Source of the DNA: Arachidicoccus soli
GTDB lineage: Bacteria; Bacteroidota; Bacteroidia; Chitinophagales; Chitinophagaceae
Assembly (NCBI RefSeq): GCF_003600625.1
Contig: NZ_CP032489.1
Coordinates: 310,001-374,000, forward strand
Direction of reading: 5' to 3'
DNA: 64,000 bases
A program made the translations under genes and the position numbers. The notes beneath the pieces are model-generated. The model worked only from the letters and a program-made list of their open reading frames with translations. It did no database searches and was not told where the DNA came from. This document shows, in pieces, positions 2,891 through 11,247 of this stretch. The stretch's first letter is position 1. The number at the start of each line of letters is the position of its first letter.

Positions 2891-3142
2891 ATGGAGACGC
2901 AATCAAATAAAAATAAGCACAATCTTTTTGATTTAAAACATCTTAATAAAAGCAAGATAATTTGGCTGACGCTTTTATGGATTATTGCCATTGGTTGTTG
3001 TATTATTTCCATAAGTGACAACTTTACTAAGTCTATTTTTCAAAAAAAATACTTGACTATTTGGATCATAATGATTGCTTCCACTTATACCATAATAAAA
3101 ATCCATTTGGATTATTTCCGAAATAAGAATAAGCAACCTTAA
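2891..3142 (+). CDS. Small two-helix membrane protein, unknown
   Basis: An 83-residue protein with a charged N-terminus rich in Asn and Lys, then two hydrophobic stretches (about residues 23-43 and 55-72) that look like transmembrane helices, and a short basic tail. I do not recognise a family. The start ATG follows AAGAAAAGAG, a reasonable purine-rich site. Its stop codon overlaps the stop of the convergent argE-like gene by four bases (TTAA read on both strands), which argues that the ends of both genes are real. It may be co-transcribed with gntK. Function unknown. Confidence 0.6.
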   Translation: METQSNKNKHNLFDLKHLNKSKIIWLTLLWIIAIGCCIISISDNFTKSIFQKKYLTIWIIMIASTYTIIKIHLDYFRNKNKQP

Positions 3143-4248
3143 AAATCTTTTCCCATTCTTTCCAACATCTTAACGTATGTTTCTATACCATCCTTTATTT
3201 CATTAACGATAATAAATTCGTCTGCTGTATGGCTGCGTGCACTGTCGCCCGGGCCACATTTTAAAGCTGGAAAAGGCATTAAAGCCTTATCAGAACAAGT
3301 AGGTGAGCCATAAGGTTTATTTCCCAACTTTATTCCAGCTTGAACTAATGGATGCTCTACTTCAATTCTGGAAGAGCGAAGACGAATACTTCTTTCTTTA
3401 AAGTCGCTTTGAATGTTTTTACGGATAATATCCATCACCTCTTCGTGCGTATAACAATCGGGTAATCGCAAATCCACAACAAAATTGCAAGTGGCCGGCA
3501 CTACATTGTGGGCCTTATTTTCGGTTTCTATTACCGTAACTGTTTGCTTTACTTCGCCCAGCCATTCCGAGACTTTTGGGTATTTATAAGTACTAAACCA
3601 GGCAATATCTTGCATCGCTTTATATAAGGCATTATCGCCCTCGTTGCGCGCTGCATGACCGGCTCTGCCATTTGCTACCACATCTAAAACCATCAATCCT
3701 TTTTCGGCAATAGCTAATTGCATTTTGGTGGGCTCGCCCACAACTGCAAACCATTTATCTTTATTATTTTTAAAATCGGGATTCAGTAAACTTTCTAAAA
3801 ATTTATCATAAATAAGCAATGCTTCAATACCATTTTTACCGGTAATTTCTTCTTCGGCAGTAGCTGCCATGACTACATTAAATGAAAGATTTTCTTTATT
3901 GTAAAAATGAACGAAAGTCGCGATTAAAGAAACCAAACATCCGCCAGCATCATTGCTGCCGAGACCATAGAGTTTTCCATTTTCTTCGATGGGCGTAAAA
4001 GGGTCTTTGGTGTATTTGGGATTGGGCTTTACCGTATCATGATGTGAATTCAATACTACTGTAGGTTTTGACGAATCGAAATATTTGTTTAATGCCCAAA
4101 CATTATTTAAATAGCGTTGAGCAGGAATATTTTTATCAAGCAAAAACTGTTCTATAATAGTAGCTGTTTTATCTTCTTCTTTTGAGAAAGAAGGCGTAGC
4201 AATTAATTGTTTTAATAACGTAATCGCATCTATGAATAAGTGTTCCAT
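3139..4248 (-). CDS. argE: M20 metallohydrolase, N-acyl-citrulline/ornithine deacylase (ArgE/DapE type)
   Basis: A 369-residue M20 peptidase-family protein. The di-metal site is visible as SHHDTV (His69, Asp71), Asp100 in GSNDAGG and AEEE at 131-134, with the later VGEPT and GPGDSARSHTADE blocks. In the Bacteroidota arginine route carbamoylation happens on the N-acylated ornithine, so the expected reaction is removal of the acyl group (acetyl or succinyl) from N-acyl-citrulline rather than from acetylornithine. It is the last gene of the minus-strand arginine operon, 56 bases behind argB. DapE-like desuccinylase is the main alternative reading by homology, and it would fit succinyl substrates equally well. 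Confidence 0.88.
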   Translation of the reverse strand: MEHLFIDAITLLKQLIATPSFSKEEDKTATIIEQFLLDKNIPAQRYLNNVWALNKYFDSSKPTVVLNSHHDTVKPNPKYTKDPFTPIEENGKLYGLGSNDAGGCLVSLIATFVHFYNKENLSFNVVMAATAEEEITGKNGIEALLIYDKFLESLLNPDFKNNKDKWFAVVGEPTKMQLAIAEKGLMVLDVVANGRAGHAARNEGDNALYKAMQDIAWFSTYKYPKVSEWLGEVKQTVTVIETENKAHNVVPATCNFVVDLRLPDCYTHEEVMDIIRKNIQSDFKERSIRLRSSRIEVEHPLVQAGIKLGNKPYGSPTCSDKALMPFPALKCGPGDSARSHTADEFIIVNEIKDGIETYVKMLERMGKDF

Positions 4249-4304: not shown

Positions 4305-5096
4305 TTACTTTATCAGTGTTCCTTCTGTTTTACTTGTTATATTTTGTAGCAAGTCTTTGGCATCGCCAATCAATACGTCTTTTACTCCTGCATTAATGGC
4401 ATCAAAAGCATTCTCTATTTTTGGAATAATGCCTTCAAATAATTTATTTTCTTGCAAAAGGTGTTGGTATTTTTCTTTGTTAATTAAACGAATGACAGAA
4501 TTCTCATCATCTACATTTTCCAATACACCTTTCTTTTCAAAACAATACATCAAACGTACATCATATAACTTCGACAATGCAACGGACAAGGCAGAAGCAA
4601 TAGTATCAGCATTGGTATTGAGAATATGGCCTTCCCCATCATGTGTAAGCGCTGCAAATACAGGAACAATATCGGCGCTCAGTAATAATTCTAAACTATT
4701 AATTTTTAATTCTTCAATATTTATATCGCCGACCCATCCAAAATCAATATCTTTTACAGGGCGCTTTTTGGCAGGAATAATATTGGCATCAGCTCCGGTT
4801 AAACCAATCGCATTACAATTTTTCTGCTGCAACTGTGCTACTATTTTTTTATTGACTAATCCGCCGTATACCATTGTTACTAGATCAATAGTATGGTCAT
4901 CTGTGATTCTGCGACCATTAATATAGTTAGGCTTTAGACCAAGTTGCTCACCAATTTTAGTGGCGATTTTCCCACCGCCGTGCACGAGGATTTTCTTCCC
5001 ATCAATTTCAGAGAAGTTCTCTAAAAAAGAAGAAAGGGTTTCTTCATTATCGATTACGTTGCCGCCAATTTTTATAATAAATAAAGAAGATTTCAA
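4305..5096 (-). CDS. argB: N-acetyl(acyl)glutamate kinase
   Basis: Phosphorylates the gamma-carboxyl of N-acylglutamate, the second step of arginine synthesis. The 263-residue amino-acid-kinase fold shows KIGGNVI at the N-terminus, VHGGGK near residue 38, GLTGADAN, LNTNADTIAS and KIENAFDAINAGV, all in the usual order. There is no in-frame ATG before the conserved beta-strand; the best start is TTG at 5094-5096, 20 bases after the MORN gene stop. A TTG start suggests modest or coupled translation. The gene lies in the middle of the arginine operon. Whether it acts on acetyl- or succinyl-glutamate cannot be read from these motifs. Confidence 0.93.
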   Translation of the reverse strand: MKSSLFIIKIGGNVIDNEETLSSFLENFSEIDGKKILVHGGGKIATKIGEQLGLKPNYINGRRITDDHTIDLVTMVYGGLVNKKIVAQLQQKNCNAIGLTGADANIIPAKKRPVKDIDFGWVGDINIEELKINSLELLLSADIVPVFAALTHDGEGHILNTNADTIASALSVALSKLYDVRLMYCFEKKGVLENVDDENSVIRLINKEKYQHLLQENKLFEGIIPKIENAFDAINAGVKDVLIGDAKDLLQNITSKTEGTLIK

Positions 5097-5116: not shown

Positions 5117-5599
5117 TTATTTAATCAGTTTACCATTTTTATATACTTGAGTTGTCTTTGTCCCATCTTCATTGTAAATATTCCATTCTCCATCATATAC
5201 TCCGTCTTTCCAATTTCCTATTCCTCTTAAATGCCCATCCTCATACCAATATTTATGAGTTCCATCGGGCTTGCCATCTACAAAATTTCCTTCACGAGCT
5301 TCATTCCCGTTTAAATTCCAGAATTTCCAATAACCATTTCTCTTTCCATTCTTTATTGTTCCTTGTGAATATACTTTACCATTCAAATAATAAATAATTT
5401 TTTGCCCATCCGCGATTGGCATGAATTGTAAATTCTTTAATCTTGATGAATCAAGCAAACTACCATTTTTTATAAAATCAGATTTGGATATTATAGTATC
5501 TCCAAGGTGAATTTCATATTTATCTAAATCAATGTTTTGTGTAAATGACTTTACACCAAAACATAATACACAAAATAAGATAAATATTAGTCGCTTCAT
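5117..5599 (-). CDS. Secreted MORN-repeat (YwqK-like) protein
   Basis: 160 residues with an N-terminal signal peptide (MKRLIFILFCVLCFG then SFTQ) and a C-terminal half built of MORN-variant repeats: YLNGKVYSQGTIKNGKRNG, YWKFWNLNGNEAREGNFVDG, YWYEDGHLRGIGNWKDG and EWNIYNEDG. Proteins of this type are very common in Bacteroidota and are often annotated as YwqK antitoxin-like without experimental support. It probably ends up in the periplasm. It sits between argF' and argB in the arginine operon with short spacers (26 and 20 bases), so it is probably co-transcribed although no arginine role is known for this family. I infer no toxin partner here. Confidence 0.8.
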   Translation of the reverse strand: MKRLIFILFCVLCFGVKSFTQNIDLDKYEIHLGDTIISKSDFIKNGSLLDSSRLKNLQFMPIADGQKIIYYLNGKVYSQGTIKNGKRNGYWKFWNLNGNEAREGNFVDGKPDGTHKYWYEDGHLRGIGNWKDGVYDGEWNIYNEDGTKTTQVYKNGKLIK

Positions 5600-5625: not shown

Positions 5626-6642
5626 TTACTTCAGCAATTCGCTAATTACTGCCTGCGCCGCCCAGACCCGATTAGCTGCTTCCTGAGTGACAATGCTGTG
5701 CGAACTATCTAACACATCGTCACTTAATTCAACATTGCGCCTTACCGGAAGACAATGCATCACACGCGCATCATTAGTTGTTTTTAATTTATCTAAAGAG
5801 AGCATCCAAGCAGGATCATTCTCATATATTTTGCCATAATCTTCATAAGTACTCCAATTTTTTACATACACAAAATCTGCATCTTTCAATGCTTCATCTT
5901 GGTTGGTTGTAATAGTAGCGCCTTTGGTGAACTGTTCTGCTAACTGATAATTCTCCGGATGTGCTATCACAAATTCCCCTGTCCCTTTCCAGGCATTCAT
6001 CCACTGGGAAAAACTATTCGCCACACATTGTGGAAGTGGCTTTATATGAGGTGCCCAGGTTAATACAATCTTTGGCTTACGTCCAAGGGGTTTTGCTTGT
6101 AGAATCTCAGTAATAGTTGTGACGTCAGTAAGGCTTTGCAACGGATGTAAAGTTGCGCTTTCTAAACTTATCACCGGGCGCCCACAATACCTTACAAATG
6201 CATTGATAAAAAGTTCGCTATAATCATCTTCTCTATTTACGAGTTGTGGAAAAGTACGAATACATAATATATCGAAATAGCTGCCTAATACGGGACCCGC
6301 ATCTTTTATATGTTCCGATGTGTTACCACTCATCACTACGCCATCTTCAAATTCTAACTGCCAGCCTTCTTTATCTACATTAAATACTATTGCTTCCATT
6401 CCTAAATTCCTGGCAGCTATCTGTGTGCTCAAACGCGTACGCAGACTAGGATTAAGAAATAATAATCCAATACGTTTGTTTATCCCTAAAGTTGCATCCT
6501 TAAGCGGATTTACTTTGTACGCCAAAGCCTTTTTTACAAGGGCATCAATGTCATTTACATCTTCAACGGAAGTAAATTTTTTAAGTTTATTGTCGCCTAT
6601 TTTCCATTCTTTGAGTAGCCCTGAGGGAATAGAATCGTCCAT
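5626..6642 (-). CDS. argF': N-acyl-L-ornithine carbamoyltransferase (predicted N-succinylornithine type)
   Basis: Transfers carbamoyl from carbamoyl phosphate to the delta-amine of an N-acylated ornithine. The carbamoyl-phosphate loop reads SLRTR at 66-70, and HCLPVRRN near the C-terminus is the binding motif of this AOTC/SOTC subgroup; the whole protein lines up from memory with Bacteroides fragilis SOTCase, including PLPQ and EAANR. The residue equivalent to Xanthomonas AOTCase Glu92 and B. fragilis Pro90 is Ser109 (in SGNTSEH). Published mutagenesis of AOTCase, as I recall it, converted Glu92 to Ser, Pro, Ala or Val with a switch to succinylornithine. I therefore infer succinyl specificity. 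It starts at ATG with a 20-residue extension before the shared KKFTSVED start region. Confidence 0.93.
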   Translation of the reverse strand: MDDSIPSGLLKEWKIGDNKLKKFTSVEDVNDIDALVKKALAYKVNPLKDATLGINKRIGLLFLNPSLRTRLSTQIAARNLGMEAIVFNVDKEGWQLEFEDGVVMSGNTSEHIKDAGPVLGSYFDILCIRTFPQLVNREDDYSELFINAFVRYCGRPVISLESATLHPLQSLTDVTTITEILQAKPLGRKPKIVLTWAPHIKPLPQCVANSFSQWMNAWKGTGEFVIAHPENYQLAEQFTKGATITTNQDEALKDADFVYVKNWSTYEDYGKIYENDPAWMLSLDKLKTTNDARVMHCLPVRRNVELSDDVLDSSHSIVTQEAANRVWAAQAVISELLK

Positions 6643-6688: not shown

Positions 6689-7849
6689 CTAAGACTCTGT
6701 AACTACGGTAGAAAGCGTTGCAATTTCTTCTTTCAACACATCCAAAAATTCATCCACTTGTTTTTTAGCAATTGCCAGAGAAGGCAACAAACGAATAACA
6801 TTTGGATTGGCGGCACCGGTAAAAATATGGTGATTGAATAATAGATTTTTTCTTAAATCTTTTAGGGCATCTGGCACATCAAAACCTATCATTAATCCTT
6901 TACCACGCAAATTTTCTATACCATCTATGCTTTTTAAACGATTGAAAAGGTAGGTGCCACGTAGCTTTGCTTGTTCAATCAGGTTTTCTTTTTCTATTAC
7001 TTCCAGCACTGCCAAAGCCGCCGCACAAGCAAGATGATTGCCCCCAAAAGTAGTTCCTAACATGCCAAATTTGGCTTCGATTTTTGGAGAAATCAAAACG
7101 CCTCCGATAGGAAATCCATTGCCCATTCCTTTAGCCATTGTATAAATATCTGCATCTACGCCAGCATAATCGTGCGAGAAAAATTTACCACTTCTTCCAT
7201 AACCGCATTGCACGCTGTCGGCAATATAGATAGCACCATATTTGTCACACAAAGAACGTATTTTTTGCAAGAAAGATTCGTCTGCAATTCTGATACCGCC
7301 TACCCCTTGTATGCCTTCGATAATTACGGATGAAATTTCTTTTCCATTTTCTGCGAAGTATTTTTCTAAAGCTTTCTCATCATTAAAAGGCAAGAAGATT
7401 ATATTTTCCGTTTCATTTACCGGTGCCACAATCTTCTGATTATCTGTTGCGGCTACCGCTAAGGAAGTACGACCATGAAAAGATTTTTTGAATGCAATAA
7501 TTTTCTTTCTTCCATTATGAAAAGAAGCCAATTTCATAGCATTCTCATTCGCTTCTGCACCACTGTTACACAAAAAAAGTTGATAATCTGTTTTGCCGCT
7601 TATCTGACACAATTTAGCAGCCAACTCTTCTTGTAAAGGAATTTTTATGGAATTAGAATAAAAGGCAATTTTGTGTAATTGATCTTCAATTCGTTGTACC
7701 CAATGGGGGTGTGTATGACCGATAGAGATTACGGCGTGACCGCCATACATATCTAGATACTGCACGCCATTATCATCCCAGACATAAGAACCAATGCCTT
7801 TCGTGATAGTGATGTCGTTGATTGGGTAAACGTTGAAAAGATTGTTCAT
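6689..7849 (-). CDS. argD: N-acyl-ornithine aminotransferase
   Basis: PLP-dependent class III aminotransferase, 386 residues, converting N-acyl-glutamate semialdehyde to N-acyl-ornithine. The CNSGAEANENAMKLA block begins at 94, Asp211 in DSVQCGYGRSG should bind the pyridine nitrogen, and Lys240 in TMAKGMGNGFPIGG should form the Schiff base. TTFGGNHLA for the phosphate follows. The start ATG overlaps the stop of a 37-codon upstream ORF in an ATGA arrangement, suggesting translational coupling. It is followed 46 bases later by argF'. Confidence 0.94.
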   Translation of the reverse strand: MNNLFNVYPINDITITKGIGSYVWDDNGVQYLDMYGGHAVISIGHTHPHWVQRIEDQLHKIAFYSNSIKIPLQEELAAKLCQISGKTDYQLFLCNSGAEANENAMKLASFHNGRKKIIAFKKSFHGRTSLAVAATDNQKIVAPVNETENIIFLPFNDEKALEKYFAENGKEISSVIIEGIQGVGGIRIADESFLQKIRSLCDKYGAIYIADSVQCGYGRSGKFFSHDYAGVDADIYTMAKGMGNGFPIGGVLISPKIEAKFGMLGTTFGGNHLACAAALAVLEVIEKENLIEQAKLRGTYLFNRLKSIDGIENLRGKGLMIGFDVPDALKDLRKNLLFNHHIFTGAANPNVIRLLPSLAIAKKQVDEFLDVLKEEIATLSTVVTES

Positions 7850-7979: not shown

Positions 7980-8972
7980 TTAGAAGTAATTCGCTTTCAA
8001 CCTCAACCCTGCATCTTCATCCAAGCCAAAAATCAAATTCATATTTTGTACTGCTTGTCCAGATGCGCCTTTTAGTAGATTGTCAGTAGCGGAATGAACC
8101 ACTAATTTAGAGCCAATTTTTTCTAAATAAATAACTGCGTTATTGGTATTTACAATTTGTTTCAGAAAGATAGGTTCATCACTTACAAAAGTGAATTTTG
8201 CATCTTTATAAAAATTCTTATAAGTTCTATTCAATTCTTCTAATGATAAATCGCAACTAACTGTAGAACTGATATAAATACCACGTGGAAAATCGCCACG
8301 CCAAGGAACAAAATTCAACACTTCTTTATTCTCTGACCAGGTTGGAAAGCTATTTTGCAATTGATGCAACGATTGTTGGATCTCATCTAAATGCTGATGC
8401 GTCAATGTTTTATAAGCCTGAATATTATTGGCTCTCCAGCTAAAATGCGATGTAGCCGATAGTTTTTGACCGGCACCGGTTGATCCGGTAATGCCTGTTG
8501 TATAAATTTCTTTTAATAAGTTTTCTTTTGCTAAAGGCAGTAATCCCAATTGTATAGAAGTGGCAAAACATCCCGGATTCGCAATATTCTGTGCTGATTG
8601 TATCGCTGCTTTGTTTATTTCCGGTAATCCGTAAACAAATTCCCTATCGCCAAATTTCGCATCTTTTATGAGTCGAAAATCATTGGCTAAATCTATTATT
8701 TTTATATTGCCGGGAATAGTATTTTCGGTGAGGAATTTTTTAGAATCGCCGTGTCCCATACAGAGAAATAGTACGTCAATGTCATTACTCAATTCGCTTG
8801 TAAATTTCAGAGAATTTTCACTGATTAAATCCTGATGAACTTTGGAAACAAGATTGCCCGCATTACTTTTACTATGAATAAAACCAATTTCTACTCCCGG
8901 GTGATTTACTAAAATTCTTATGAGTTCTCCACCTGTGTAGCCCGCGCCACCTATTATTCCTACTTTTATCAT
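7980..8972 (-). CDS. argC: N-acyl-gamma-glutamyl-phosphate reductase
   Basis: Reduces N-acyl-glutamyl phosphate with NADPH to the semialdehyde, third step of the pathway. The Rossmann start KVGIIGGAGYTGGEL is at 3-17, the catalytic cysteine is Cys135 in NPGCFAT, and the HFSWRANN / HQHLDEI region follows. I start at ATG 8970-8972 (MIKVGI, 330 residues) because that places the nucleotide-binding strand right at the N-terminus as in the family; a TTG six codons upstream is the alternative. It lies 65 bases downstream of argG on the same strand. Confidence 0.94.
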   Translation of the reverse strand: MIKVGIIGGAGYTGGELIRILVNHPGVEIGFIHSKSNAGNLVSKVHQDLISENSLKFTSELSNDIDVLFLCMGHGDSKKFLTENTIPGNIKIIDLANDFRLIKDAKFGDREFVYGLPEINKAAIQSAQNIANPGCFATSIQLGLLPLAKENLLKEIYTTGITGSTGAGQKLSATSHFSWRANNIQAYKTLTHQHLDEIQQSLHQLQNSFPTWSENKEVLNFVPWRGDFPRGIYISSTVSCDLSLEELNRTYKNFYKDAKFTFVSDEPIFLKQIVNTNNAVIYLEKIGSKLVVHSATDNLLKGASGQAVQNMNLIFGLDEDAGLRLKANYF

Positions 8973-9037
8973 TTCTTCTTTTTTAGCCAAAGGTTAAAAG
9001 CTTTATGCATGAAACCTTCTTATTAAAATAATCTTGT

Positions 9038-10240
9038 TTAAGTTTTATCGTTGGCATTAAATTTTACACTTTCATAAATTGCTACTTGATTGCCAAATAT
9101 TTTACTGAATCCGCGTACGTCTTCGCCCGTCCATCCATTATTCATTTCACCATATTTTCCAAATTTCGCACTCATCAAATCATATTTTGATTCGATACCT
9201 AAAATTTGAAAACGATAAGGTAATAATTGTACAAAAACGTCGCCAGTTACGTGCGCTTGTGCACTCGTAAAGTAAGCTTCAATATCGCGCATTACCGGAT
9301 CTAGAATTTGTCCTTCGTGCAAATAATTGCCATAGAATATAGACAAATTATCTTTCATCGGCAATTGCCATTTGGTCAATACATGTTTTTCCAAAGCGTG
9401 ATGTGCTTTGATAATGACTACTGGTGCGGCAGCTTCAAAACCTACTCGACCTTTGATGCCGATAATCGTATCTCCCACATGAATGTCGCGACCGATGCCA
9501 AAAGGTGCAGCAACACTTTGCAAATGCTGAATAGCTTCTGTAGGATGTGCAAATTTTTTACCATCGATAGCAATTAATTCACCTTTTTCAAAACTCAATT
9601 TCACCTCTTCGGGTTCAGATTTTGTAACCTGTATTGGCCAGGCTTCATCAGGTAAAAAACCCTTACTTGTCAATGTTTCTCGACCGCCTACACTTGTTCC
9701 CCAAAGTCCTTTGTTGATTGAATAAGCAGCTTTCGCAAAATTCATATCCACTCCTTTGCTTTTCAAATATTCAATCTCTTCTTCACGACTCAATTTTAAA
9801 TCGCGAATGGGTGTGATGATTTCAATGCCAGGAGTAACTGTATTTAAAATCATGTCAAAACGTACTTGATCATTACCTGCTCCTGTACTTCCGTGTGCAA
9901 CAGCATCTGCGTTTAATTTCTTTGCGTGCTCTGCCATGTGTAAAGCTTGCACCAAACGTTCTGCGCTTACACTTAGTGGATAGGTATTGTTTTTTAATAC
10001 ATTTCCAAAGATTAAATATTTTACAATCCTGTCGTAATAATTTTTTACGGCATCAATAGTTGTGTGGGTTTTTACCCCTAAAGCATAAGCGTGTGCTTCT
10101 ATTTTTTTTAATTCTTCTTCATTAAAGCCACCGGTATTCACAATAATGCTATGAATATCGTAACCTTTATCTTGAAAATGTTTTACACAAAAAGTAGTGT
10201 CTAATCCACCGCTAAAGCCCAATACAACTGATTTTGCCAT
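9038..10240 (-). CDS. argG: Argininosuccinate synthase
   Basis: Joins citrulline and aspartate using ATP to make argininosuccinate. The 400-residue protein shows the N-type ATP pyrophosphatase loop FSGGLDTT at 9-16 and the GSTGAGNDQVRFD block typical of the enzyme. It is the second gene of the arginine operon, 19 bases after the GNAT gene stop. Having argG and the GNAT gene as the first two cistrons means the putative leader attenuator would control both the entry reaction and the committed late step. Confidence 0.95.
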   Translation of the reverse strand: MAKSVVLGFSGGLDTTFCVKHFQDKGYDIHSIIVNTGGFNEEELKKIEAHAYALGVKTHTTIDAVKNYYDRIVKYLIFGNVLKNNTYPLSVSAERLVQALHMAEHAKKLNADAVAHGSTGAGNDQVRFDMILNTVTPGIEIITPIRDLKLSREEEIEYLKSKGVDMNFAKAAYSINKGLWGTSVGGRETLTSKGFLPDEAWPIQVTKSEPEEVKLSFEKGELIAIDGKKFAHPTEAIQHLQSVAAPFGIGRDIHVGDTIIGIKGRVGFEAAAPVVIIKAHHALEKHVLTKWQLPMKDNLSIFYGNYLHEGQILDPVMRDIEAYFTSAQAHVTGDVFVQLLPYRFQILGIESKYDLMSAKFGKYGEMNNGWTGEDVRGFSKIFGNQVAIYESVKFNANDKT

Positions 10241-10259: not shown

Positions 10260-10952
10260 TTATAAATTAAATAAACTCAGAAAAAAAGATTTACCATTCA
10301 CTTTTTTACGAAATGCTTGTAAAAATTTATGTTGTTTCAAACGCATCAACCTTTCGTAAATTTTTGATTTTTCTTTAAAATACTCTTTCGTTTCCTCTGG
10401 CTTGTAATGATCTTTTGGGTCGAACAGCATTGCAGTACACATGCAATTTTTTCTCTCCTTACTCATCAAAATATCGTAATTGACGCAACTTTTACAACCG
10501 GCCCAGAAGTCATCATCATCTGTCAATTCGCTGTATGTTACTGGTTCGTATCCTAAATCAGAATTGATCTTCATGACAGCCAATCCTGTTGTTAAACCAA
10601 AGATTTTTGCGTCTGGGTATTTTTTTCTTGAAAGTGCGAAGGTAGTTTCTTTGATGCGTTTTGCCACACCACTTTTTCTAAAATTAGGTGAAACAATAAG
10701 ACCGGAATTGGCTACAAATTTACCATGACTCCATTCTTCAATATAGCAAAAGCCTGCCCAATGACCTTCTACTGAGAGGGCAATGACAGCCTTTCCTTCC
10801 AGCATCTTATTGACTATATATTCAGGTGAACGTTTGGCTATACCTGTGCCGCGCACTTTGGCTGAGTCAGCCATTTCGTCTACAATTTCTTGAGCATAAC
10901 CTGTATCGCCATCATTTGCAATACGTACAATAATATTATTTATATTTTCCAC
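10260..10952 (-). CDS. GNAT acyltransferase, candidate N-acylglutamate synthase of the arginine operon
   Basis: A 230-residue GNAT protein, first gene of the arginine operon. The acyl-CoA pyrophosphate loop is SPNFRKSGVAKRI (88-100). After the GNAT fold comes CKSC at 153-156 and CMC at 170-172, so CxxC-x13-CxC, which could hold a metal and is not part of a standard GNAT domain. The C-terminus is helical and basic. No ArgA or ArgJ is in the window, so by position it may supply N-acetyl- or N-succinyl-glutamate; this is an inference from context. The only start available is GTG at 10950-10952, because no in-frame ATG exists between the leader peptide stop and this point. Translation may depend on the leader RNA fold. 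Confidence 0.8.
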   Translation of the reverse strand: MENINNIIVRIANDGDTGYAQEIVDEMADSAKVRGTGIAKRSPEYIVNKMLEGKAVIALSVEGHWAGFCYIEEWSHGKFVANSGLIVSPNFRKSGVAKRIKETTFALSRKKYPDAKIFGLTTGLAVMKINSDLGYEPVTYSELTDDDDFWAGCKSCVNYDILMSKERKNCMCTAMLFDPKDHYKPEETKEYFKEKSKIYERLMRLKQHKFLQAFRKKVNGKSFFLSLFNL

Positions 10953-10980: not shown

Positions 10981-11101
10981 AACCTCGCAATGGAAAAAAC
11001 ATGCGAAGTACTAAGGTTAAGAGGCCACCATATGGATTAAGGCCTCGGTCGTCGGATTAGCGGGAAAAAAGAGCGGGGGGCATTAACAAAAGAAACCTTA
11101 G
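10981..11101 (-). promoter_or_regulatory. Candidate arginine attenuator: alternative RNA pairings
   Basis: Three pairings are visible on the minus-strand RNA. Segment 1 (CTAAGGTT, 11094-11101, inside the leader ORF) is perfectly complementary to segment 3 (AACCTTAG, 11011-11018). Stem B pairs GAGGCC (11041-11046, over the last Arg codon) with GGCCTC (11021-11026). Stem C pairs AACC and TCGCA (11015-11018 and 11002-11006) with TGCGA and GGTT (10981-10989). Segment 3 cannot be in the 1:3 duplex and in stem C at once. A ribosome at the CGA CGA codons would cover stem B. No strong U-tract follows stem C, so control of translation of the GTG-started GNAT gene is as possible as termination. Confidence 0.55.
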
Positions 11102-11114
11102 CACACACCAACAT
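11037..11114 (-). CDS. Arginine-rich leader peptide of the arg operon (25 residues)
   Basis: An ATG-initiated 26-codon ORF in the 5' leader of the arginine operon. The peptide starts MLVCAK and ends IRRPRP followed by TAA; Arg residues are at 14, 21, 22 and 24, with two adjacent CGA codons at 11049-11054. The 3' end of the ORF forms the 5' arm of a hairpin (11041-11046 with 11021-11026). It has no obvious SD, and its ATG lies in the loop of a 5-bp stem (11105-11121). The layout is that of an amino-acid leader peptide whose ribosome stalls at Arg codons when charged tRNA-Arg is low. Not recognised from any named family; inference from arrangement. Confidence 0.65.
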   Translation of the reverse strand: MLVCAKVSFVNAPRSFFPLIRRPRP

Positions 11115-11217
11115 GGGGTGTCCGGCTAAAAAAAGGCTATTTGTGTCGTAATTTTTCAACTTCTAATTATAAATGAAGTGTGAGTGAAAATTGTTATTTC
11201 TCTTTTCGTTTGCGGCG

Positions 11218-11247
11218 TAAAGGTACAATACTTCTAAAGAATGACAA
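11218..11247 (-). promoter_or_regulatory. Predicted promoter of the arg operon
   Basis: On the minus strand TTG (11245-11247) is followed after 19 bases by TACCTTTA (11218-11225), one mismatch from the Bacteroidota -7 consensus TAnnTTTG with a normal spacing to the -33 element. Transcription would start near 11211, about 100 bases before the leader peptide and 260 before the GNAT gene. Inferred from consensus only. Confidence 0.5.

Follow-up and report, generated by a model that had tools for sequence, protein, structure and literature searches.

How could Bacteroidota lineages that lack ArgR sense arginine? The question is raised by the arginine operon of Arachidicoccus soli, carried on the minus strand of the 64,000-nt stretch of DNA that was analysed as a whole (the window, to which all coordinates refer). 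ArgR (PF02863) had no match in the A. soli genome, nor in 57 of the 58 other genomes searched, and the sole match in that 59-genome search was partial, with an internal stop. ArgR was rejected as the regulator here, since it was not found in the genome. The initial annotation had proposed an arginine-responsive leader peptide ahead of the operon, made up of a promoter-like element, a short ORF ending in Arg codons, a hairpin and a long-range complement, and as a whole this observation was confirmed on direct reading (Table 1).

The arginine operon and its leader ORF

The operon runs from a GNAT acetyltransferase gene through argG, argC, an argD-like gene and a carbamoyltransferase gene to argB. 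At 1e-3 the GNAT protein matched neither Pfam nor NCBIfam; its weak matches were to PF00583 (18.5 bits) and to PDB PA4794 (E 4.9e-6). Four Cys residues of the protein (153, 156, 170, and 172) were invariant across 26 aligned sequences, and the enzyme is a candidate for the role of the N-acyl-glutamate synthase that is missing in these bacteria. In two sets of loci long enough to tell, argG followed GNAT on the same strand within 400 nt in 50/52 and 74/75 cases; the exceptions, with no argG found immediately behind GNAT, were L012, L038, and L143. The GNAT gene of one congener (G001:C1:900990-901642) was recovered in two overlapping matches, which suggests a frameshift or an assembly error. Inside the A. 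soli operon, a small repeat protein that we take to be MORN-like is encoded between the carbamoyltransferase gene and argB (5117-5599, minus strand). The minus-strand genes at 3139-4248 and 853-2226 are presumably argE-like and argH-like, respectively, and an opposite-strand gene (2280-2801) separates the argH-like gene downstream of the operon.

Table 1. Features of the arginine operon and its leader region in the window.
Feature	Position	Strand	Basis
Promoter-like element, Bacteroidota type, TTG-N19-TACCTTTA	11218-11247	-	Read from sequence
Leader ORF, 40 codons from the most likely TTG start, MKNYDTNSLFLAGHPMLVCAKVSFVNAPRSFFPLIRRPRP-stop	11037-11159	-	Comparison, frame statistics, TTG kept in genus
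Hairpin 0, within the leader ORF, with a U-rich stretch past it (11097-11085); proposed pause hairpin	11098-11129	-	Helix in 6/6 congeneric sequences
Tandem CGA CGA (Arg-Arg), proposed stall site	11049-11054	-	CGACGACCGAG identical in all 6 congeneric sequences
Third tail Arg codon, AGG	11043-11045	-	Relatives vary among synonymous codons here
Hairpin 1, 5' arm on the last Arg codon up to the stop	11021-11046	-	-11.1 kcal/mol; similar in 6 congeneric sequences (single folds)
Hairpin 2, with UUAUUCAUUAU behind it; weak, terminator-like	10982-11009	-	z -3.01, 2/200 shuffles equal; similar in the other five (single folds)
GNAT acetyltransferase, first operon gene	10260-10952	-	Sequence/profile comparison
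argG, argininosuccinate synthase	9038-10240	-	Profile match
argC	7980-8990	-	Profile match
argD-like acetyl/succinylornithine transaminase	6689-7849	-	NCBIfam argD 365.7 bits, under the 410 cut-off; Aminotran_3
Acetyl- or succinylornithine carbamoyltransferase	5626-6642	-	NCBIfam N-acetylornithine carbamoyltransferase 278 bits, under the 288 cut-off
argB, N-acyl-glutamate kinase	4305-5096	-	Profile match

Upstream of GNAT, direct reading of the minus strand confirmed the promoter-like element, with TTG at 11247-11245 and TACCTTTA at 11225-11218. The motif TAnnTTT[GAC] was present upstream of the leader in 112/127 family regions, compared with 40/127 after shuffling (one mononucleotide shuffle each). 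The leader ORF ends in ...PLIRRPRP-stop with tandem CGA codons, as first described, but its length had to be revised: the original count of 26 codons took an internal ATG (11114-11112) as the start. An in-frame TTG farther upstream (11159-11157) is kept at a constant distance in 6/6 congeneric sequences, within an invariant AAGTTG, and for this reason a start at the TTG, giving 40 codons, is most likely. Bacteroidota ribosomes work largely without Shine-Dalgarno pairing.

Conservation and coding constraint of the leader

GNAT was found in 307/394 Chitinophagaceae genomes; 132 loci were fetched, and 129 had a readable upstream region (L026 was N-masked, and the GNAT match was absent from the slices of L054 and L107). 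To be scored as a leader, an ORF had to have 18 codons or more, to match R.{0,2}R within its nine C-terminal residues, and to end 55-180 nt ahead of the GNAT match. By this measure an Arg-tailed ORF preceded GNAT in 128/129 regions, compared with 1/129 on the reverse strand and with a mean of 9.06/129 (maximum 19/129) in 50 sets of dinucleotide-shuffled controls. A second, named set, partly overlapping in species and scored with a slightly looser distance window, gave 79/80. The lone leaderless region of the first set (L072) and the one miss of the second (L171) are identical in upstream sequence. In L132, one of the 128, the regular expression took the wrong frame (the true tail is RPQRCCPLF), and this locus was excluded from the 127 leaders analysed further. 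The spacer between leader and GNAT match measured 71-150 nt (median 108). The conservation of the Arg-tailed ORF supports the claim of an arginine-specific leader peptide ahead of the arginine operon.

We sorted the 127 leaders by their tails into four groups: G1 (the genus of the window, 6), G2 (36), G3 (70, without L132), and G4 (15). Comparison within groups indicated coding constraint in the expected frame: in-frame pN/pS was 0.20 in the HTK clade (part of G3), 0.48 in G2, 0.59 in G4, and 0.58 in G1, and shifted frames ranged from 0.86 to 2.35 (0.86 and 1.62 for the two other frames of G1, from 10-12 pairs). Purifying selection in these four sets would also suit a functional small protein whose place beside the arg genes is incidental or reflects a simple operon. 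Such a protein is very unlikely in our judgement: the bodies of the leaders look unrelated by eye between several groups and the Arg tail is common to all, the ORF directly precedes GNAT almost without exception, and the tail combines the product of the operon with a rare codon. An arginine leader remains the preferred reading.

Beyond the family, we sampled 148 Bacteroidota genomes, of which 134 carried argG and 54 had an ArgR match (53 without the doubtful G009), and examined 70 of the 134. GNAT stood ahead of argG in 48/70 loci, and 34 of these 48 had a leader by the strict regular expression, compared with 4.45 expected. None of the 48 loci came from a genome counted as ArgR-positive; the match in G009 was left uncounted, being partial, with an internal stop, and at the cut-off. 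In ArgR genomes the leader was scored in 3/13 loci (2.35 expected), a weak negative control because the tested stretch precedes argG and not argR; in genomes with neither GNAT-argG nor ArgR the score was 3/9 (1.85 expected). Tails from the wider phylum include MQKSLAHRIDRRSVRRIPRRR, ...APTRRRP, and ...SPVRRRRYFFRV. Fourteen of the 48 GNAT operons failed the regular expression; two of them have an ORF ending in SRQNFTPRI, and inspection by eye of the remaining 12 gave no leader candidate. Divergent GNAT homologues (L220-L223, two of them in G034) also have upstream ORFs with Arg at the end (...SRRPRI, ...SPIRR, ...SDLRR, and ...CRRPRL).

The arginine tail and the RNA structure around it

Arginine accounts for 376/1143 (32.9%) of the last nine residues of the 127 leaders and for 82/3772 (2.2%) of the preceding body residues, so that codons for the end product are clustered ahead of an operon carrying argG, argC, argD, the carbamoyltransferase gene, and argB. 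Lys makes up 0.3% of tail residues, with no replacement of Arg by Lys. All 127 leaders have their last Arg within 0-4 codons of the stop, and the tails found among Chitinophagaceae are of the types RRPRx, RPRRGC/F, RRRPxF, RPMRCPDC, RPRPGF, and VRR.

The choice of Arg codon differs between tail and body. CGA provides 205/376 Arg codons of the tail, compared with 5/82 in the body and 6.3% of 826 in the GNAT genes; as a reference, 13 reading frames of the window itself have CGA at 22/173 Arg codons. Of 118 leaders with RR, 103 have CGA at the first Arg; in leaders with RR[PS]R, the third Arg is spread over synonymous codons (CGT 20, AGA 9, AGG 5, CGG 3, CGC 3, CGA 3). The A. soli genome has tRNA-Arg genes with the anticodons ACG, CCG, CCT, and TCT among the 42 tRNAs found (150 of 238 candidates scored); a TCG tRNA was absent from this set, and a pattern search of the genome also gave none. 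The ACG tRNA reads CGA through a modified I:A pairing, which is a poor one. Since no TCG tRNA was found, CGA seems to be decoded in A. soli by the ACG tRNA alone. In assays of the Salmonella his leader, Arg-Arg pairs containing CGA led to high de-attenuation in the part of that work consulted (PMC4046918). The choice of a rare codon favours a leader that would depend on charged tRNA-Arg.

Could the peptide itself, rather than the decoding of its codons, be the sensor? The Arg-rich C-terminus and the body might together arrest the ribosome with (or without) free arginine. The fungal arginine attenuator peptide (AAP) and enteric SpeFL are upstream peptides tied to arginine or ornithine that work by nascent-chain arrest and have defined sequences; unlike these, the leaders described here have only the Arg tail in common across all groups. 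The body of the HTK clade is conserved at the amino-acid level (pN 0.169, pS 0.740, pN/pS 0.23 over 26 codons, 20 sequences, and 178 pairs), a result unfavourable to pure codon reading in that clade. A looser pattern, TH-x(3,6)-A-x-H, is common to 14/36 G2 and 13/70 G3 bodies, and the closeness of the last Arg to the stop would also agree with arrest. The same pattern is found in 0/6 G1 and 0/15 G4 bodies, which nevertheless carry the Arg tail; tail variants (RPRP, RPMR, RPQR, VRR) are tolerated; and the synonymous preference for CGA fits decoding speed, not the peptide. Nascent-chain arrest is therefore less likely, because codon choice matters and the bodies of G1 and G4 differ, and we consider it improbable. 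Decoding of the tail codons is the reading followed below.

Three hairpins surround the tail in A. soli. Hairpin 0, within the ORF, is paired in 95.8% of cells of the G1 alignment, with double changes at two pairs. A hairpin followed by a U-tract was detected within the ORF in 68/127 leaders (28.8 expected), including 5/6 of the genus; the exception is the copy in the window, which falls under the threshold of that scan, and the window stretch 11080-11125 alone folded no better than shuffles (z 0.04). The in-ORF helix recurs in 6/6 G1 sequences, in 75% of 36 in G2, and in 86% of 14 in G4 (alignment of 14/15, L090 left out), with compensatory changes in G4 and G1. In the G4 leaders L016, L018, and L110 a CUGUAC/GUACAG-type hairpin inside the ORF is kept while the encoded residues change (PVQLRTV, PVLPGAV, and SVLPGTV). 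In an RNAalifold model of the six G1 sequences, the U-rich stretch that follows hairpin 0 was also paired with the Arg codons.

The hairpin said to have its 5' arm over the last Arg codon is present as hairpin 1, with arms GAGGCC (11046-11041) and GGCCTC (11026-11021); its own z was -1.59 (17/200 shuffles equally good), and the stretch from the Arg codons to +45 was better in energy than shuffles over the six G1 sequences (mean z -1.94). Less can be retained of the alternative pairings proposed at first. Hairpins 1 and 2 recur in position within the genus (six sequences), but the long-range pairing does not. The 8-bp complement (11101-11094 with 11018-11011) is real and stable in the window, where it grows to 11 pairs with G-U and its stretch has a z of -3.22 (0/200 shuffles equal); in five congeneric sequences the helix shrinks to just 6-9 bp in differing registers, and in this uncertain part of the alignment 77.1% of cells are paired, with shuffles scoring as high in 60/500 cases for pairing and 29/500 for covariation. 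The 8-bp helix was therefore rejected as a conserved feature. The whole 256-nt leader folded slightly better than shuffles (z -1.37, 20/200 as good), and the probability of pairing between the stop region and downstream sequence was not above that of shuffles in G1, G2, or G4. The long-range helix thus gives no conserved antiterminator that would exclude the other folds, and the further pairings are candidates.

In G3 the stop codon itself is part of the 5' arm of a hairpin, CUGA(C/U)AGG...CCU(G/A)UCAG. At least 7 of its 8 pairs can form in 68/70 sequences, compared with a mean of 10.9 and a maximum of 18 in shuffles. In an alignment of 61 of the 70 (56 distinct; left out were L027, L029, and L130 and the near-duplicates by eye L038, L039, L078, L089, L092, and L127), 100% of cells of the outer helix were paired. 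One pair varied (C-G 26, U-A 23, U-G 7); the other seven are invariant and so uninformative on covariation. The inner stem showed double changes. An ACGA internal loop is conserved in this hairpin 1 of G3 (L019:1240-1296 and others), the loop of the hairpin is often ACC, and GGNNUGGUNNUCC follows farther downstream in many loci. A loop-loop or alternative pairing with the downstream motif is possible: inspection by eye suggested that the ACC loop could kiss the GGNNUGGU motif or form an antiterminator with it, and RNAalifold supports two pairs of the second hairpin only.

So strong a conservation of one hairpin might point to a structured RNA, a riboswitch or a protein site, as the sensor, with the ORF as a by-product. 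This is extremely unlikely: the hairpin was seen in G3 only and the Arg tail occurs in all groups, and known cis elements of Rfam (riboswitch, T-box, Bacteroid-trp) gave no match at gathering score in the 64 kb, the best match near the leader having 16.1 bits (E 9.4). Structure at the proposed stall site ranges from the covarying G3 hairpin, through hairpin 1 of the window, which overlaps the last Arg codon, to weak signals in G2 and G4.

The sensor side of the leader thus appears well supported, by a conserved coding ORF with an Arg tail, by the preference for a rare CGA, and by hairpins conserved within clades. From these comparisons we conclude that the leader is quite probably an arginine-specific regulator of the arginine operon, in which arginine would be sensed by decoding of the Arg tail. 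The grounds on which this proposal might have fallen at the sequence level did not materialise: the ORF and its tail are kept, coding constraint is evident, and covarying stems were found in three clades.

The output step and known leader systems

How would the state of the ribosome reach the operon? When charged tRNA-Arg is low, the ribosome would stall on CGA-CGA (11054-11049) and cover the 5' arm of hairpin 1 (11046-11041); hairpin 1 would then be blocked and the operon read. With ample arginine the ribosome would reach the stop and leave, hairpins 1 and 2 would fold, and less transcription would pass into GNAT-argG. Hairpin 0 and the U-rich stretch may pause RNA polymerase, so that ribosome and polymerase would arrive together. 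Transcription read-through as the output is, in our estimate, roughly an even call, and the step is assigned indirectly because no conserved intrinsic terminator precedes GNAT.

A consensus scan of the window gave no intrinsic terminator ahead of GNAT. Across all groups, a hairpin with a U-tract was found between leader and GNAT in 41/127 loci, compared with 24.2 expected (G3 18/70 vs 13.3; G2 12/36 vs 5.8; G4 8/15 vs 4.3; G1 3/6 vs 0.8), and the stretch from +42 to GNAT was unstructured in G2 (mean z +0.27) and G3 (+0.36). A 3:4 terminator common to all clades is unsupported in view of the near-chance frequency in G3 and the unstructured stretch. Textbook attenuation needs a conserved intrinsic terminator ahead of the first gene; none was found in the larger clades, and the genus of the window has a recurrent weak one. 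The leader is for this reason not classed as a trp-type attenuator. As a whole, the arginine reading of the initial annotation is supported for an Arg-specific leader ahead of the operon, and unsupported for the exact alternative pairings and a textbook terminator.

The same sensor could instead act through another output, with the stalled or departing ribosome governing GNAT translation, the decay of the mRNA, or the access of Rho in place of an intrinsic terminator. The lack of a conserved terminator in the larger clades and the unstructured region past hairpin 1 in G2 and G3 speak for it, and an excess of C over G after the stop in G3 (C/G 1.49 from 0 to +60, 1.56 from +35 to GNAT) would agree with Rho; this excess is modest, and C also exceeds G ahead of the leader (C/G 1.31-2.03). 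In Staphylococcus aureus the rbfL leader, in the parts of the source consulted, senses arginine limitation through rare Arg codons and ribosome pausing, as tested there, and occludes a ribosome binding site under that limitation (PMC13009471). It is the nearest tested arginine case that we found, unrelated and opposite in sign: as described in those parts, rbfL encodes 8 aa of unrelated sequence, overlaps the ribosome binding site of the next gene, represses translation, and targets a biofilm regulator (PMC13009471). The leader-GNAT spacer given above is too long for direct occlusion as in rbfL, and hairpin 2 in the window genus resembles a weak terminator. An output of this kind has, in our view, a real chance of being correct while falling short of a probable one.

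The enteric trp, his, leu, and ilv operons have leader-peptide transcription attenuators. The arginine leader is like these in its short ORF with product codons clustered near the end, in the slow codons, which raise sensitivity, and in a hairpin touching the stop region; it is unlike them in its amino acid, in its occurrence in Bacteroidota, in the lack, among the larger clades, of a conserved intrinsic terminator ahead of the first gene, and in a further hairpin with U-tract that about half of the leaders have within the ORF. The Bacteroid-trp motif is a leader-type element. This Bacteroidetes element (RF01692) is tabled as probably cis-regulatory in the portion of the source consulted (PMC2864571), and the window contains no Rfam match to it. 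For Flavobacterium psychrophilum, strong clues for leader peptide attenuation before amino-acid biosynthesis operons have been described; no arginine leader is named in the part consulted, where 'arginine' in the main text concerns cyanophycin (PMC9723704). Leader-like sORFs of Bacteroides are mentioned in general terms in the corresponding part of another paper (PMC7366714). A search of the open-access literature, covering titles, abstract openings and selected passages, gave no arginine leader for Bacteroidota arginine operons.

For arginine sensing in Bacteroidota lineages that have no ArgR, the leader offers a concrete explanation that can be put to the test, and with it arginine would join the amino acids that biosynthetic operons monitor through a leader peptide. 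On a far-reaching view, which we hold to be a long shot, a large part of the ArgR-less Bacteroidota would use Arg leaders tuned by the rarest Arg codon, the nascent peptide of at least one clade, with its conserved HTKQFAFHAPITSGVYAVGYDVFTF body, would take part as an arginine-responsive arrest peptide, and the output would need no intrinsic terminator. The many natural variants of the leader could be used to learn how the response of such a sensor is set by rare codons, by a hairpin within the reading frame, and by a stem that contains the stop codon.
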